A stretch of 64,000 nt of DNA from the NCBI GenBank assembly GCA_900319245.1, contig ONNQ01000006.1, positions 29,822 to 93,821 on the forward strand, in the 5' to 3' direction. The stretch is from an uncultured Lachnospiraceae bacterium (GTDB lineage: Bacteria > Bacillota > Clostridia > Lachnospirales > Lachnospiraceae). This document shows, piece after piece, positions 3,882-64,000 of this stretch. Both the position numbers and the translations under genes were made by a program. The notes beneath the pieces were generated by a model. The model made no database searches. It was given only the letters and a program-made list of their open reading frames with translations, and had not been told where the DNA came from. How positions within the stretch are numbered: the stretch's first letter is position 1; each line of letters opens with the position of its first letter.

Positions 3882-4322
3882 TCAGTCGTCCTTAATAGCC
3901 TCGTTTTCGACGATCCTTAAACCCGTGGAACTGATTCCGGGCGTGTGGGGCAAAAAAACAACATCCACGCCTTTTCGACCAAGATCTTCTCTGGTCTTCT
4001 CCCATCGGGGATTTCCTTTCCAGTCGTCTCCGATGAAGATCGCATCAAAATGATATTTGAGAAGGGCCTCTTCTTTGTCCAGCGTATCAGCGATGACACA
4101 TTCATCAACCGCCTTGATATTCGCGACGATGGTCTGTCTCTCCTTCTCATGAACAACAGGCGTCTTGTGTTTATAAGATTCCACAAGTGCGTCGGAATTG
4201 ACACCTACGATCAGATGTTCACAATACGCTTTCGCGTTGTTGATCAGATTCAAATGTCCTATATGAAACATATCATATACACCTTGTGTATAGCCGACTT
4301 TGTATTTTTTCATTTCCTTCAT
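3882..4322 (-). CDS. tagD: Glycerol-3-phosphate cytidylyltransferase-like (TagD family)
   Basis: 146 aa cytidylyltransferase. GVYDMFHIGH at residues 14-23 carries the HxGH nucleotide-binding motif, and HTPGISSTGLR near residue 130 corresponds to the RTEGISTT signature of TagD. It would join CTP and glycerol-3-phosphate to give CDP-glycerol, the donor for the neighbouring glycerophosphotransferase. The first ATG lies 4 nt after the upstream stop with only a weak AAGAGA site, so expression probably depends on coupling to that gene. Other small alditol-phosphate cytidylyltransferases share the fold. The adjoining TagB-like gene favours glycerol as substrate. Confidence 0.87.
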   Translation of the reverse strand: MKEMKKYKVGYTQGVYDMFHIGHLNLINNAKAYCEHLIVGVNSDALVESYKHKTPVVHEKERQTIVANIKAVDECVIADTLDKEEALLKYHFDAIFIGDDWKGNPRWEKTREDLGRKGVDVVFLPHTPGISSTGLRIVENEAIKDD

Positions 4323-4326
4323 TCTC

Positions 4327-5475
4327 TTAATTACTGCTAATCTTGCTTTTGATCAGTTGTACGACACGCTCTGTCGCATTTCCGTCTTCCAATGATCCCA
4401 TATCCTGATGATGTAGATCCATCTGCTTTCGAAATTCTTCCGGCGCATAACTGTCGATTTCGTCTAAGAGTGCATCCATCGTCTCCGCAATCGGGAATCT
4501 CCACTTTTCGATCGGAAGGTCAAAACTCTTCTCCTGATAATATTCCTTTAAATCATAACAATACAGAAAGCAGGGACGATACGTAAACGAATAATCCCAA
4601 ATGCAGGAGGAATAGTCAGAGATCAGGATATCTGCTGTGTAGAGAAGGTCCTGCATTTCCGGATAATCCGTCGCATCCTTTACATATTCGAACGGAGTAC
4701 GGATCCTGTCTCTTACGTTGGGATGAAGCCGCACCGCAATGATCCACCTTCCGCCGAACCTCTCCACCAGCTTATCATGCAGCCTCTTGTAATCCAGCGG
4801 GTATTCCCCCTCACTCTTTCTGCTGGTTCTCCAAGTAGGCGCATAGAGAAGAAGTCTTGCTCCATCCTCATAGCCGAGCCCCTCGCGGACACGGGCCGGA
4901 ATCCTGTCGTCGTTCTGCCGGATCAAAACATCCATCCGGGGCGTACCGGGAATTACCTCCCCTGTAAAGCCCATGGATCCTCGAACTCTGCGCTCTGTCA
5001 TACTTGCAGCTCCGCTGCATACATAGGAATAGTCCCTGTGCATCTGCTGATTCACTTTGCTGGCGATACCGGTAGAACTTCCGATTTTTTTATACCCATT
5101 GCTTGCGTGCCAGGTCTGGATAAAGGTCTGCCCCTTTCGTCTGGCAAGTTCTCCATACCCCTGCACGTTGAAGACCACGACTCTTGATGTTTTGGCAAGA
5201 TAATAATACTTTAGAGATCTATATCGCACTCTCCTGATCCCGGGTTCTGTGAGATCTGCAAACTTTTCCGGCTTTTTGAAAGCCCAGATGATCTCCACTC
5301 CACTTTCCTTACTGAGCCGGTCTGAGATACACCTTGGATTGCAGGAGTATTGCTTGCCGTTAAAGCTGTAAAACATGACTCTGTTCGAGTGGATCGGACA
5401 GAGGTTGAATATATTGAGAATACACCGCAATAGGAGGATGCCCCAGTACTGTGCGTAGAGTTTCAATGTTTTCAT
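4327..5475 (-). CDS. CDP-glycerol:poly(glycerophosphate) glycerophosphotransferase family (TagB/TagF-like)
   Basis: 382 aa in the preferred reading. QTWHASNGYKKIG, YAPTWR, RLHPNV and DILISDYSSCIWDYS are the conserved blocks of the TagB/TagF family, which adds glycerol phosphate from CDP-glycerol to a lipid-linked acceptor at the cytoplasmic membrane face. The start chosen is the ATG at 5475 (GAGG four bases upstream). An in-frame TTG at 5541 behind AAGGA would add 22 residues. A TATAAT at 5557-5562 lies so close to that TTG that a transcript from it would barely include its ribosome site, which favours 5475. At this size it resembles a primer or modifying transferase more than a long-chain polymerase. 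Confidence 0.87.
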   Translation of the reverse strand: MKTLKLYAQYWGILLLRCILNIFNLCPIHSNRVMFYSFNGKQYSCNPRCISDRLSKESGVEIIWAFKKPEKFADLTEPGIRRVRYRSLKYYYLAKTSRVVVFNVQGYGELARRKGQTFIQTWHASNGYKKIGSSTGIASKVNQQMHRDYSYVCSGAASMTERRVRGSMGFTGEVIPGTPRMDVLIRQNDDRIPARVREGLGYEDGARLLLYAPTWRTSRKSEGEYPLDYKRLHDKLVERFGGRWIIAVRLHPNVRDRIRTPFEYVKDATDYPEMQDLLYTADILISDYSSCIWDYSFTYRPCFLYCYDLKEYYQEKSFDLPIEKWRFPIAETMDALLDEIDSYAPEEFRKQMDLHHQDMGSLEDGNATERVVQLIKSKISSN

Positions 5476-53428: not shown

Positions 53429-56311
53429 TCATTTTTTTATGCGCACGGCCTTAATTGCACTCCACTTCGAGTAATACTTTACACCATTAACCAATTTGTA
53501 GGTGCGAATGCGGACATAGTATTTCTGTCCCTTTTTGAGACTTCCGATTTTTCTCGTCAGTGTTGTGTTGGAAGTCACCCACGCATTTACAGATGGCGCA
53601 AAATCCTTATTCAGTGATAGCTGAATCTGATACCCTGTCCCGATCGTATTTTTCTTGTATGTGACCAGCACTTGCCCCGCCTTGGGACTGGTCAATCCGG
53701 TAATGCATGTCATCGTCGGATTCACCACAATCGGGACTTTCTTTGTCGCCGTTTTGTAATTGCTGCCCTCAGCTGTGATCGTAATGATCGCCTTACCGAG
53801 GAATCCGGCGCCAATCGTCACCTTTCCATCCGCTGTCACCTGCACGCCGTCTTTGTTGGAACTGTAGGCGATATCACCGCCAAGCGCTTCCGCACCGATC
53901 GCATAAGTTCTGTTTCTGGTCGAATAGACCTTGGTGATGCTGGCCGTTCCAACCGTGATCGCGTTGGGCGCCTTTTCGATCTGGAACTCCTCTGTGCGGG
54001 TGCCGGTATAGCCGTTTTCATCAATGCCGGTGATCGTAACTGACGCCGGTGTATCTTCTGTGGCTTCCGTGTTGTTGCTGTATTCAACTGTATAGTGGAC
54101 GCCCTCTGTCAAAACATCGTCGCCATCCATAACGACCAGATCCGGCGTAAGCGCTTCTCCAGTGTATGTTAAGGCAGACAGTCCTGTGATATTGAGTTCT
54201 TCCACCGAGACCGGATTGACTACGACAGGCACTGTCTTTGTCACTGTCTTGTAATTGCTGTTCCCGGCCGTGATCGTGATAACCGCCTCGCCCATAAAGC
54301 CTGCACTGATCGTCACTTTTCCATCGACGCTCACCTGCACGCCGTCTTTGTTGGAACTGTAGGCGATATCACCGCCAAGCGCTTCCGCACCGATCGCATA
54401 AGTTCTGTTTCTGACCGAATACACTTCGGTGATGCCGGCTGTCTCAACTGTGATCGCGTTGGGCGCCTTTTCGATCTGGAACTCCTCTGTGCGTGTACCC
54501 GTGTAGCCGTTCTCATCAATGCCGGTAATCGTCACAAGCGCCGGTGCGTCCGGTATTTCCTCCGTGGCATCTATGTTGTTGCTGTATTCAACTGTATAAT
54601 GGACGCCTTCTGTCAGGATCTCATCGCCGTCCATAACAACCAGATCCTGCGTAAGAGGTTCACCAGTGTATGTTTTGTCAACGATACCTGTGAAAGTGAG
54701 CGTTGGAAGATAGCGAAAGTTTTGATCACTTAGTGTAAGCTCTTCCGTATTCCAAATACTGAGTGCGTCCTGATCATATGTATACAGGTAACCGCAGTCA
54801 ACCGTATATCCATCCTGCGGAGTTCCCACTGCGCCGACCAGAAAGAGTTTATTACTTCCTACAGAACCTATATCACAGTTAGTAACATCAACAATATAGT
54901 TCCTGTCATTAAACATCGAGACGACATTCCACATGTGCCCCCCGCCTCCGCTGCCAAAGTCCACATCACCTGTGATTAGGAGGCATCCTAATTCATTATC
55001 AAATGTTGACTGATTGAACAGATACTGGAAGGCCTTGGAATATCCCTCACAGACAACCTTTGTCTGGGGGTCCTGGTCAAAGACCCAAATGAGCTGCCAC
55101 GGATCGCCATAATCAGTATTACTGAAATTTGAGTAATTATATGACGTTAGTCTGCAAACCTCGTCTCGGTAGCTGACCAGCTTTTGGTAATCGTCTTCAT
55201 CCGCATGCTGCTCCACGATCGAAACCGCATAAGCGGCAGAGTCGCGGACAGTCTGTCCGATTGAAGTATCTACTTCATAGTCTCCTGACGCATATTCTTC
55301 CTGGACAGGGAGTTTAGCAATGCAATTGCTTGACAGCCAAACTCTGTTTTCTTCAGGGTTCTCGCTCTTGGTATACTTGCTAAGGCTGTATGGTGTTAAA
55401 TATGACGAAGCATTCTTTTTATACCAGTACAGAAGATATGGGTGATCGGCTAATAGTGCGTTTATAATTAAATCCCAGTCATAATTAACCTGCTCTCTGA
55501 TCACTTGCTTAGCCTCAGCAGTTAGTTTTCCGTCTTCTCCAACAACCGTAGTAACGCCAAGGCTATAGAGTTCTGCAAATGTCCATTCCGTCTTTTCCAG
55601 ACCCATGTCGCTGATTTTTATAGTAAATATTGTTTCTGTGCGCTCCCCTGACTCAATGAGAGGAAGCTGAGAGCTTATGTAATCATAGAGTGCTCTGTCA
55701 TAACCGGTAAGCCGACTGCCGGCTGAAGGTCGCCTTGCCTTCAGCATACGTGAGTCCTTACCACCAATTCCAAACGCGTTATCTACATAGGCGGCGAACA
55801 TCTCATCCGAGGAAGCGCCTCCTTCCGGAACTACGCTTTCTTCTTCTGCGAGCTCTTCTTCGTCAGAAATCTCTTCCTGATCAGCGGATTCCTCTTTCTT
55901 GTCTTCTGTAATTGCTTCTTTGTCCGCAGTTTCTTCTTCTGCTGCTAATTCTGCGGTATCCGATTCTGCTGCGGTGTCTGCCTCCTCTTCAGTGTCTTCT
56001 TCGGATGCAGCGATTGATTCCTCTCCCGCGTCTGCCTCAGATGCAGCGATTGATTCCTCTTCCGCGTCTGCCTCAGATGCAGCGACTGATTCCTCTTCTG
56101 TATCTACTTCGGTTACGGAGTCTGTCTCATCCACGGTTTCTTCTGCTGTTTCAGAATCTGCCTCCTCTGTGACAGTTTCAGTTGTCTCTTCAACACTTTC
56201 TTCTATTGAAATTGTTTCTGCTGCTACTGCCGTGATCACATTTGCAGGACAACATCCCGACACTGCAAGAACAATTGTCAACAGGATTGCATACCACTTA
56301 AAACTTCTCAT
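53429..56311 (-). CDS. Secreted repeat-rich surface protein with transglutaminase-like domain
   Basis: 960 aa. The signal peptide (about 5-30) is followed by an extremely acidic Glu/Ser/Thr/Ala region to about 165, including three 12-residue repeats of EEESIAASEADA type. A transglutaminase/cysteine-protease-like domain has the triad pattern VVCEGYSKAFQYL, GGGHMWNVVSMF and YIVDVTNCD (about 400-500). Two Ig-like modules of 165 residues are nearly identical in sequence (IEKAPNAITV, YAIGAEALGGDIAYSSNKDG). The C-terminus is Fn3-like (GLTSPKAGQVLVTYKK) without an LPxTG anchor. It is probably exported and cell-wall-associated. Start ATG 56311 with AGGTG eight bases upstream. Confidence 0.88.
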   Translation of the reverse strand: MRSFKWYAILLTIVLAVSGCCPANVITAVAAETISIEESVEETTETVTEEADSETAEETVDETDSVTEVDTEEESVAASEADAEEESIAASEADAGEESIAASEEDTEEEADTAAESDTAELAAEEETADKEAITEDKKEESADQEEISDEEELAEEESVVPEGGASSDEMFAAYVDNAFGIGGKDSRMLKARRPSAGSRLTGYDRALYDYISSQLPLIESGERTETIFTIKISDMGLEKTEWTFAELYSLGVTTVVGEDGKLTAEAKQVIREQVNYDWDLIINALLADHPYLLYWYKKNASSYLTPYSLSKYTKSENPEENRVWLSSNCIAKLPVQEEYASGDYEVDTSIGQTVRDSAAYAVSIVEQHADEDDYQKLVSYRDEVCRLTSYNYSNFSNTDYGDPWQLIWVFDQDPQTKVVCEGYSKAFQYLFNQSTFDNELGCLLITGDVDFGSGGGGHMWNVVSMFNDRNYIVDVTNCDIGSVGSNKLFLVGAVGTPQDGYTVDCGYLYTYDQDALSIWNTEELTLSDQNFRYLPTLTFTGIVDKTYTGEPLTQDLVVMDGDEILTEGVHYTVEYSNNIDATEEIPDAPALVTITGIDENGYTGTRTEEFQIEKAPNAITVETAGITEVYSVRNRTYAIGAEALGGDIAYSSNKDGVQVSVDGKVTISAGFMGEAVITITAGNSNYKTVTKTVPVVVNPVSVEELNITGLSALTYTGEALTPDLVVMDGDDVLTEGVHYTVEYSNNTEATEDTPASVTITGIDENGYTGTRTEEFQIEKAPNAITVGTASITKVYSTRNRTYAIGAEALGGDIAYSSNKDGVQVTADGKVTIGAGFLGKAIITITAEGSNYKTATKKVPIVVNPTMTCITGLTSPKAGQVLVTYKKNTIGTGYQIQLSLNKDFAPSVNAWVTSNTTLTRKIGSLKKGQKYYVRIRTYKLVNGVKYYSKWSAIKAVRIKK
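53680..54680. repeat. Two 495-bp in-gene direct repeats (Ig-like modules)
   Basis: Sequence around 53866-53920 recurs almost unchanged at 54361-54415, an offset of 495 nt (165 codons). The similarity extends on both sides and marks a recent module duplication that could recombine. Confidence 0.85.
56004..56111. repeat. 36-bp x3 tandem repeat in the acidic region of the surface protein
   Basis: Units starting GATGCAGCGATTGATTCC at 56004, 56040 and 56076 (the third slightly changed) encode 12-residue acidic blocks. The units are in frame, so gain or loss changes stalk length only. Confidence 0.9.
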
Positions 56312-56402
56312 AGCTTTGTTCACCTGTCTCTTTCACGTATCACTTTCACGAAAAATAACAAATTATTATATCATATTTAAACATATTCTCACAATGCAAC
56401 GA

Positions 56403-62881: not shown

Positions 62882-63072
62882 CCGCTTCCCCCTTTCGAAC
62901 AAAATGCTTACTTTCTATATAGTATAGACGATTCATGTTATTTAACTCAATTGCAAAATGCTGCGAGCTCACAGGAAGCCGTGATTTCGCAATACATATG
63001 GCACTGTACAGGGTCACATATAAGCATTCATTATTAAACCTGTATTCGTTTTGCCTTGTGGGCGGACGCCTC

Positions 63073-63445
63073 GATGCATCTTACTATTTGATTTCTGTCT
63101 GTCTATGATGCATTTTCCTGCAAGAATCAAAATAATGGTGCATCATCGATTGGAATTCTTATGATAAGAAGATGCAGGTTATTTTTGAGGGCAGAGGAAA
63201 TCCAAAAAGCTGAATTGTAGGATGCGAATCGACTGTTTGTGCTGCATCATCAAGTCGGTAAACTGGGGCTATGAGATGCATTTTCTCCGTTCCTGGACCA
63301 ACTTGCCCCAAAAAAGCGGAGCATAAACACAATTCTCGTAATCTAGGATGCAGCATTTGCATCTTCGTTTCAGCTTTTTTTCATTTTCTCTGCCGCCTAA
63401 AAAAAGTTGCATCCTGCGCGACGTGATTTTAAAAGCTATGATGCA
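63073..63445. repeat. Array of GATGCA/TGCATC hexamers, many exactly 32 bp apart
   Basis: GATGCA lies at 63073, 63107, 63171, 63275, 63347 and 63440. TGCATC lies at 63075, 63139, 63243, 63358 and 63408, and a GATGCG at 63221. Four pairs have the form TGCATC-N26-GATGCA (63075/63107, 63139/63171, 63243/63275, 63408/63440), each exactly 38 bp overall, with partly conserved inner ends (CATCATC at the left, GCTATGA at the right). Each pair could form a stem-loop, or each hexamer could be a protein site. Confidence 0.8.
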
Positions 63446-63487
63446 TATTGGGGTTCTGAAAATAAACGAGTACTTTAAGACACAAAA

Positions 63488-63738: not shown

Positions 63739-63936
63739 TTAACTGACGGTGAATAGATCCGAAAGCATGTTCATATTCTTTTGTTTGAGATCCATAGACG
63801 GATGCACATATCTGTTCAAGGTGATGTTTACGGTTGAATGTCCTAGGATCTCGCTAAGGCTCTTTATGTCAAAACCCAGCTCGACACAGCGTGTTGCAAA
63901 AGTATGCCGGAAATGTAGAGCTCTACATTTGAGACA
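63739..63936 (-). pseudogene. C-terminal fragment of a tyrosine recombinase/integrase
   Basis: The minus-strand frame reads ALHFRHTFATRCVELGFDI, then KSLSEILGHSTVNITLNRYV and HPSMDLKQKNMNMLSDLF to a TAA at 63739. The RHTFATR arginine box, LGHS histidine and NRY tyrosine are the catalytic C-terminal residues of Tn916/phage-type integrases. Upstream the frame meets TAA (63937-63939) and TGA, and the usual residues between LHF and RHTFAT are missing. At this point lies a 20-bp palindrome (63911-63930). The gene is therefore broken or shifted. The rest, if any, lies right of the window. Confidence 0.8.
63911..63930. repeat. Perfect 20-bp palindrome at the integrase break
   Basis: AAATGTAGAG joined directly to CTCTACATTT. 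A third, direct copy ATGTAGAG follows 10 nt further (63940-63947). The alternating copies mark the exact place where the integrase frame is lost. Confidence 0.85.
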
Positions 63937-64000
63937 TTATGTAGAGTGTTTGATAATGGTGAGTCTTTCACAAAAAACCAGCATTCAAGCATCATAACAT

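Follow-up and report, generated by a model that had tools for sequence, protein, structure and literature searches.

The array of short hexamers at positions 63073-63445 of the window, by which we mean the whole 64,000-nucleotide stretch of an uncultured Lachnospiraceae genome analysed here, is apparently one copy of a dispersed and mobile DNA element. Across the genus, arrays of this kind are enriched beside relatives of a nuclease whose gene is enclosed by two copies of the element in the window's own genome, and in part of these loci the same array-nuclease-array architecture recurs. We lean, if only by a small degree, towards a nuclease-driven mobile element, of which the window would hold one of the solo, non-autonomous binding-site arrays, contig C77 the cognate nuclease, and other lineages their own, different words.

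Within the 373 bp of the array lie 11 exact GATGCA/TGCATC sites (63073+, 63075-, 63107+, 63139-, 63171+, 63243-, 63275+, 63347+, 63358-, 63408-, and 63440+), the GATGCA at 63073 overlapping the TGCATC at 63075, as well as a variant site, GATGCG, at 63221, where a shuffle mean of 0.36 sites is expected for this length (Poisson P ~3e-13). This agrees with the preliminary description, which had counted ten exact sites plus an overlap and one variant where fewer than one would occur by chance. Its further observations hold as well, namely the alternating orientation of the sites at 63075, 63107, 63139, and 63171 with a spacing of 32 bp, and the four occurrences of TGCATC-N26-GATGCA at equal length, starting at 63075, 63139, 63243, and 63408. 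In a scan of the whole window, from which overlapping sites and words of fewer than three different letters were excluded, GATGCA was the sole hexamer with a cluster of at least 8 sites within 450 bp, each strand carrying 3 or more. A simple tandem repeat and a CRISPR-like locus had both been ruled out beforehand, and rightly; only about 6 bp are constant and their orientation alternates.

The array, to which no strand is assigned as a whole, can be divided into five units without strand and two oriented modules. Unit H1 (63075-63112) is TGCATC-N26-GATGCA with the overlapping GATGCA at 63073, and unit H2 (63139-63176) is the same pattern, its first site being 32 bp past the second site of H1. 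Module M (63171-63226, plus strand) reads GATGCA-N44-GATGCG and contains GGCAGAG at 63190-63196; it is followed by unit H3 (63243-63280), again TGCATC-N26-GATGCA, and by unit H4 (63315-63352), in which a degenerate left site, AGCGGA in the window and TGCATC in the C77 copies, is separated by N26 from the GATGCA at 63347. Module M' (63358-63413, minus strand) is the 44-bp module inverted, with GGCAGAG on the minus strand at 63388-63394, and unit H5 (63408-63445), TGCATC-N26-GATGCA, closes the array. The right half of this geometry is the middle part inverted, each having a 44-bp spacer (63177-63220 and 63364-63407) with GGCAGAG at an equal offset and in opposite orientation; the distance of this motif from the hexamer is constant across arms, one of nine of which reads GGCAGAT. 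Helical phasing of the like-oriented sites is suggestive, since ten like-oriented periods fall within 0.19 turn of whole turns at 10.5 bp (3 of 20,000 random sets did so), but merely suggestive, because other periods fit better, for instance 11.5 bp (R 0.875 vs 0.795 at 10.5 bp). Elsewhere in the window, and unrelated to the array, three GATGCA sites of one orientation lie 36 bp apart at 56004-56081, inside a 964-aa ORF (53429-56323, minus strand).

The own genome (G000, 80 contigs) holds the unit, with a spacer of 20-32 bp, in 21 places and the reversed pattern in none; part of the 21 resemble chance or coding matches, such as those at C54:36432 and at window 23628. Four copies, C47 (the array of the window), C49, C77a, and C77b, share a twelve-position geometry with sites at offsets 0-, 32+, 64-, 96+, 146+, 168-, 200+, 240-, 272+, 283-, 333-, and 365+, and with shifts between copies of at most 1 base. 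The site at 240 is degenerate in C47 and C49, C77b is without the last site, and some sites of the copies read GATGCG or CGCATC. C73 and C62 carry partial copies, C54 and C77 single units, and C77a and C77b form direct repeats, 91% identical over 433 bp, that flank the gene of a 280-aa nuclease. When C47, C49, and C77a are compared two by two, 63-65 of 66 hexamer positions agree (95-98%) if site 240 is excluded, and 65 of 72 if it is counted, while spacers of equal length are only 44-50% identical. These dispersed copies lend support to the earlier suggestion that the array probably comprises sites of a mobile element. The exact GATGCA triple-site pattern was found in the own genome only, out of 99, and in none of the 98 relatives, and array DNA had no match in phages and plasmids. 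Matches to the module pattern at 8 loci in bacterial genome contigs and 1 in viral contigs were judged by eye to be coding coincidences, each having at most 2 further sites within 400 bp beyond the matched pair; several of these loci read like what we take to be uvrA or relA. A viral match to the array pattern (L048) was set aside too, as it showed no further array and resembled coding sequence by eye. On C62, at a distance of ~660 bp from its partial array, we noticed by eye a protein like the Rpn-type recombination-promoting nucleases (L010 3537-4526).

Arm-type sites of an integrase had been among the options first considered, and the C-terminal part of a tyrosine integrase indeed lies ~290 bp from the array (63739-63912 on the minus strand, the stretch aligning to the integrase gene of the congener G054). 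The fragment is real, but its description as a remnant is indistinguishable from an assembly cut-off, the end of the window being the end of the contig. At the syntenic locus of G054 (L056), the neighbours stand in equal order (a DUF5684-type protein, an alpha-galactosidase, a 174-aa protein, and the integrase), the integrase is open, and its C-terminal end matches that in the window, the two genes ending at almost the same point. A site scan of the G054 locus revealed no array, and the 530 bp that contain it in the window (62951-63480, no strand, the interval not aligned to G054 and hence the outer bounds of the insertion) are replaced there by 54 bp. Since G054, with an intact integrase, has no array at this one locus, we do not regard the array as the site of the integrase. 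Furthermore, relatives of the integrase at E <= 1e-30 occur in the own genome only on C73 and C63; none was found on C49 or C77 at this threshold, nor by eye in their ORF lists. Even with a second neighbourhood of this sort, a partial array on C73 ~1.4 kb from the N-terminal part of an integrase near the contig end, it is extremely improbable that the array consists of arm-type or accessory sites of the neighbouring integrase, which we judge to be a bystander.

For the C49 locus, we examined 9 of the larger number of relatives found by the search, and in these the array is likewise not covered by the alignments. Taken alone, the C47 locus, whose flanks are 76% identical to G054, could also reflect an old deletion in G054. 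Absence of the pattern from homologous loci had been named beforehand as evidence against its being meaningful; the pattern is in fact absent from the homologous locus, but because copies exist elsewhere in the genome, comparison of the sequences points to an inserted element rather than noise. Neither a target-site duplication nor exact element ends were found, as the flanking intergenic DNA is too diverged to fix the ends. At the contig end (window 63912-64000), an 18-bp perfect palindrome, AATGTAGAGCTCTACATT, is followed by sequence shared with C73, where it also lies near the contig end (L011 5500-5637), in both cases inside an integrase fragment; this shared sequence is either an insertion sequence or an assembly chimera.

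Instead of DNA sites, the array might encode a structured RNA with several hairpins, as had likewise been proposed. Compared with 60 shuffles, all four copies fold more stably (z -3.4 to -9.8, both strands), as would an array of self-complementary words, and 7 of the 52 pairs in the predicted consensus show two-sided change. On the other hand, the covariation term of RNAalifold for the aligned copies is unfavourable (+2.3), in six unit sets the bases just inside the hexamers pair no more often than with shuffled partners, and the 44-bp arms show no co-evolution, matching within a copy (25-27 of 44) no better than between copies (20-31 of 44); nor did the window give any Rfam match. Because compensatory pairing is lacking, the arrays look like putative protein-binding DNA sites, and we discarded hairpin RNA as a very improbable alternative.

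The gene between C77a and C77b (G000:C77, L007 4757-5599, minus strand) encodes the 280-aa protein, a predicted PD-(D/E)XK-like nuclease, as judged from its acidic motif and from the order of core elements in modelled relatives. Across 47 aligned members the motif RSKSE..YE..PDF..EHxG is conserved, with K175, E177, D208, and H224 invariant and E223 present in at least 90%; RSKSE, YE, PDF, and EHxG we take to be typical of PD-(D/E)XK nucleases. A profile of the family found 9 viral domain relatives in large ORFs (hhalign probability against the family 99.9), whereas the C77 and L171 proteins, each used as a single query, gave no viral match. The model, built for these viral domains and not for the C77 protein (mean pLDDT 74.7), has the element order helix-strand-strand-strand-helix-strand expected of the PD-(D/E)XK core. 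Its Foldseek matches are weak (best E 0.006, none reaching E 0.001 in PDB), and among the 50 listed PDB matches are EndoMS, R2 endonuclease, Bax1, TnsA, and AvaII, beside unrelated ribosomal entries. No Pfam or NCBIfam family matched the C77 protein; among the 47 aligned relatives, six Pfam families each weakly matched one member, NCBIfam families matched none, and HEAT_CxxC_PDDEXK matched 23. In the viral loci (L184-L192), the domain is C-terminal in open frames of 747-1353 aa, some of them cut by contig ends, and two plasmid matches are annotated as AAA family ATPase. Hexamer arrays at these viral loci are weaker, the best having 8 sites (L185). MT839528.1 (L243), a phage-labelled faecal record, also has a relative, which spans 91% of the C77 protein.

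All 47 members match the C-terminal part of the PADLOC defence candidate PDC-S68, which would fit a defence or self-recognition pair of nuclease and array, in which the arrays titrate, store, or licence a nuclease directed against DNA where the hexamer arrangement is either missing or present. PDC-S68 is, however, itself a candidate only, and its models comprise ~1200 aa (1202-1273 aa), unlike the array-linked domain, which likewise resembles its C-terminal nuclease domain but stands in ORFs of mostly 260-325 aa (naive start choice). In addition, no second gene partner was noticed, and the window shows no depletion of GATGCA (60 sites, those of the array included, vs 62.6 expected), by which, as far as the window goes, we also rejected a restriction-type avoided site. 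Overall, a role in defence appears quite unlikely to us.

We located relatives of the nuclease at 92 places in 33 of the 62 genus genomes and examined 60 of these places; the remaining 32 are mostly lower-scoring. Some of the relatives stand beside arrays, usually of a hexamer other than GATGCA, including CCGATA, GGCTTA, TATACA, AACGCA, ACGCCA, GCCCAA, GTAACA, and more, with sites in both orientations and at fixed distances. At least 8 sites of one hexamer within 1 kb were present at 14 of the 60 loci, short flanks counted, and at least 7 sites on at least one side at 24; the other 36 loci, which have no hexamer with that many sites in the near flank, count against the nuclease-driven element. 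By segments, defined as positive with at least 8 sites of one hexamer, at least 2 of them per strand, in 450 bp, 15 of 115 lying up to 1 kb from the nuclease were positive, two of these at C77 itself, vs 0 of 107 far segments (1.3-2.3 kb), two of which had 7 sites. Segments shorter than 800 bp were dropped from this tally, among others that with the TATACA array of L131, and the Fisher p of 4e-5 is to be read as a guide only, since some loci are orthologous and the test followed the first sighting of arrays at part of them. Several positive loci are orthologous in at least two genomes, so that these counts are not independent. Repeats between both flanks of the nuclease were found at 14 of 55 testable loci vs 2 of 36 control ORFs, one of the two beside an array (p 0.02); the 11 loci with direct repeats include four orthologous ones (L169-L172) and L177, whose repeat is merely 40 bp.

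Control loci amounting to 160,550 bp contain two hexamers that reach 8 sites with 3 per strand, CGGCAG at L033 and CAAAGG at L075. The latter forms a regular array in G041 (L075 2177-2616, the same as L183 ~4137-4576) downstream of a polyphosphate-kinase-like gene, and a gene of this type also adjoins C77a in the own genome. A tblastn search of 10 kb with three nuclease queries returned a single match here (E 0.016), and this array without a nuclease seen nearby is another point counted against the nuclease-driven element. The word GCCCAA is common to one nuclease clade (L169-L172 and L175). A second family, with GCCCAA sites, seems to exist in the own genome (L008 2698-3025 on C54 and L180 ~2822-4400 on C35), and a second nuclease relative, with direct flank repeats, lies on C35 (L180).

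The three words examined (GATGCA, CCGATA, and GGCTTA) are genome-specific and occur in many solo copies. For instance, G035 has 29 occurrences of CCGATA-N22-TATCGG, spread over seven contigs, and the 61 other genomes have 0-1 each. Of TAAGCC-N23/24-GGCTTA there are 41 occurrences in G001 and 55 in G031, compared with 0-2 per genome in the 60 others, and the reversed control gave 0-3. In 20 stretches from these three genomes there are 15 solo arrays of at least 4 sites. All are intergenic, with two extending by at most ~70 bp into the end of an ORF (naive ORFs), and a search of the stretches concerned gave no nuclease relative. The spacers of the units are 34-37% identical in G001 and G031 and 51% in G035. 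A further point counted against the nuclease-driven element is G031, which despite its 55 units has no GGCTTA array near its two nuclease matches in the stretches examined; because this assembly is 78% complete, the cognate gene may be missing from it or may have been lost.

Although it is one case only, the comparison of L160 (G001) with L166 (G041) gives the clearest indication that the word moves or changes along with the enzyme. These appear to be one chromosomal place, as the flanks are 98% identical over 474 bp on one side and 77-81% on the other, whereas the nucleases are 47% identical over 226 aa and the hexamers differ, GGCTTA at L160 and AACGCA at L166. The spacing of like-oriented sites, ~52-53 bp, is the same at both.

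The arrays could alternatively be sites of the host, at which a different lineage-specific DNA-binding protein would serve regulation or the organisation of the chromosome, with the nuclease gene as a homing-like parasite inserting into them or next to them. Such a role would fit the location of all 15 larger solo arrays between ORFs, the excess of units over the nuclease genes found, and the retention of the hexamers in dispersed copies despite diverged spacers, as under selection on each copy. Yet congeners lack the arrays at those syntenic loci that were examined, the three words are specific to genomes inside one genus, and at one locus word and nuclease differ jointly. As such frequent changes of site would hardly be expected of an essential host system, we disfavour this explanation and consider it unlikely.

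According to the nuclease-driven element that we prefer, the array of the window would be a solo, non-autonomous copy of a dispersed element built of putative sequence-specific binding sites, and the 280-aa protein of C77 would be the cognate enzyme of the GATGCA arrays. We infer that the nuclease, or a complex containing it, binds the hexamers as an oligomer, that the alternating sites at fixed distance assemble one nucleoprotein complex, and that cutting within or beside an array copies or moves arrays into intergenic DNA, with or without the nuclease gene, spread being driven by the cutting. Different nuclease lineages would then use different hexamers. Whether a stand-alone PD-(D/E)XK nuclease and its cognate hexamer array, with a word particular to each genome that is rewritten as the nuclease diverges and with little beyond word and spacing under selection, constitute a new class of mobile element is to us an even bet. 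If so, one genus would hold a large natural set of pairs of nuclease and binding word, useful for learning how DNA specificity is rewritten, and REP-like dispersed repeats with a single cognate nuclease would have arisen outside the HUH/RAYT lineage. Likewise, a widespread protein family that matched neither Pfam nor NCBIfam here would gain a function, and strictly spaced intergenic repeats an explanation. The linkage of word and enzyme makes their pairing directly testable by binding assays.

Several known systems share single traits with these arrays. MITEs and ERIC sequences are imperfect palindromes of a few hundred bp inserted between genes, and so are the hexamer arrays, but the conservation of the latter is mostly limited to the hexamers, their spacing, and GGCAGAG as a single further motif, and the word next to a related nuclease differs in other genomes. 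The ends of Tn7-like transposons carry multiple strictly spaced binding sites, and these transposons employ a TnsA-type endonuclease; the strict spacing of short sites in dyad is similar, and TnsA is among the weak fold matches, but the ORF lists that we read showed no further transposition gene next to the arrays, and the element ends are undefined. CRISPR loci resemble the arrays in having short constant parts and variable spacers of similar length. However, the constant part here is 6 bp, with alternating orientation and no near-identical repeats of ~20 bp or more, the arrays are short and dispersed, and the spacers of the copies in the own genome are partly alike (44-50%).

The closest parallel is provided by REP/REPIN sequences, which are, in outline, short palindromic non-coding repeats that are intergenic, numerous, and associated with one nuclease gene. 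As in the REP/REPIN-RAYT system (TnpA-REP, Y1/HUH), short palindromic repeats are here dispersed between genes and linked to one nuclease gene. Yet the enzyme linked to the hexamer arrays is predicted to be PD-(D/E)XK-like and not Y1, the conserved word is 6 bp only, with spacers that are unpaired and divergent, and the units form arrays, mostly of 8-18 sites in ~300-500 bp. A REP-like stem-loop with complementary inner bases was not seen in the six unit sets, where pairing did not extend beyond the hexamer. This comparison suggests a nuclease-plus-array element that is unreported and REP/RAYT-like in logic, its enzyme probably being unrelated; the titles and abstract openings of the literature, a partial coverage and weak evidence of absence, yielded no description of such an element. 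We rejected a RAYT as cognate enzyme, the one Y1_Tnp match in the 80 contigs of the own genome (C8:272-601) lying on a contig where no array unit was found. A second dispersed repeat, GTGAGTCAGTGGACCTGTCC-like (L006 3479-3538 and L012 1710-1910), is present in intergenic DNA of the genus and is matched in G054 and other genomes; it may be of REP type with a RAYT gene, as the gene at L056 3281-4216 resembles a RAYT by eye.
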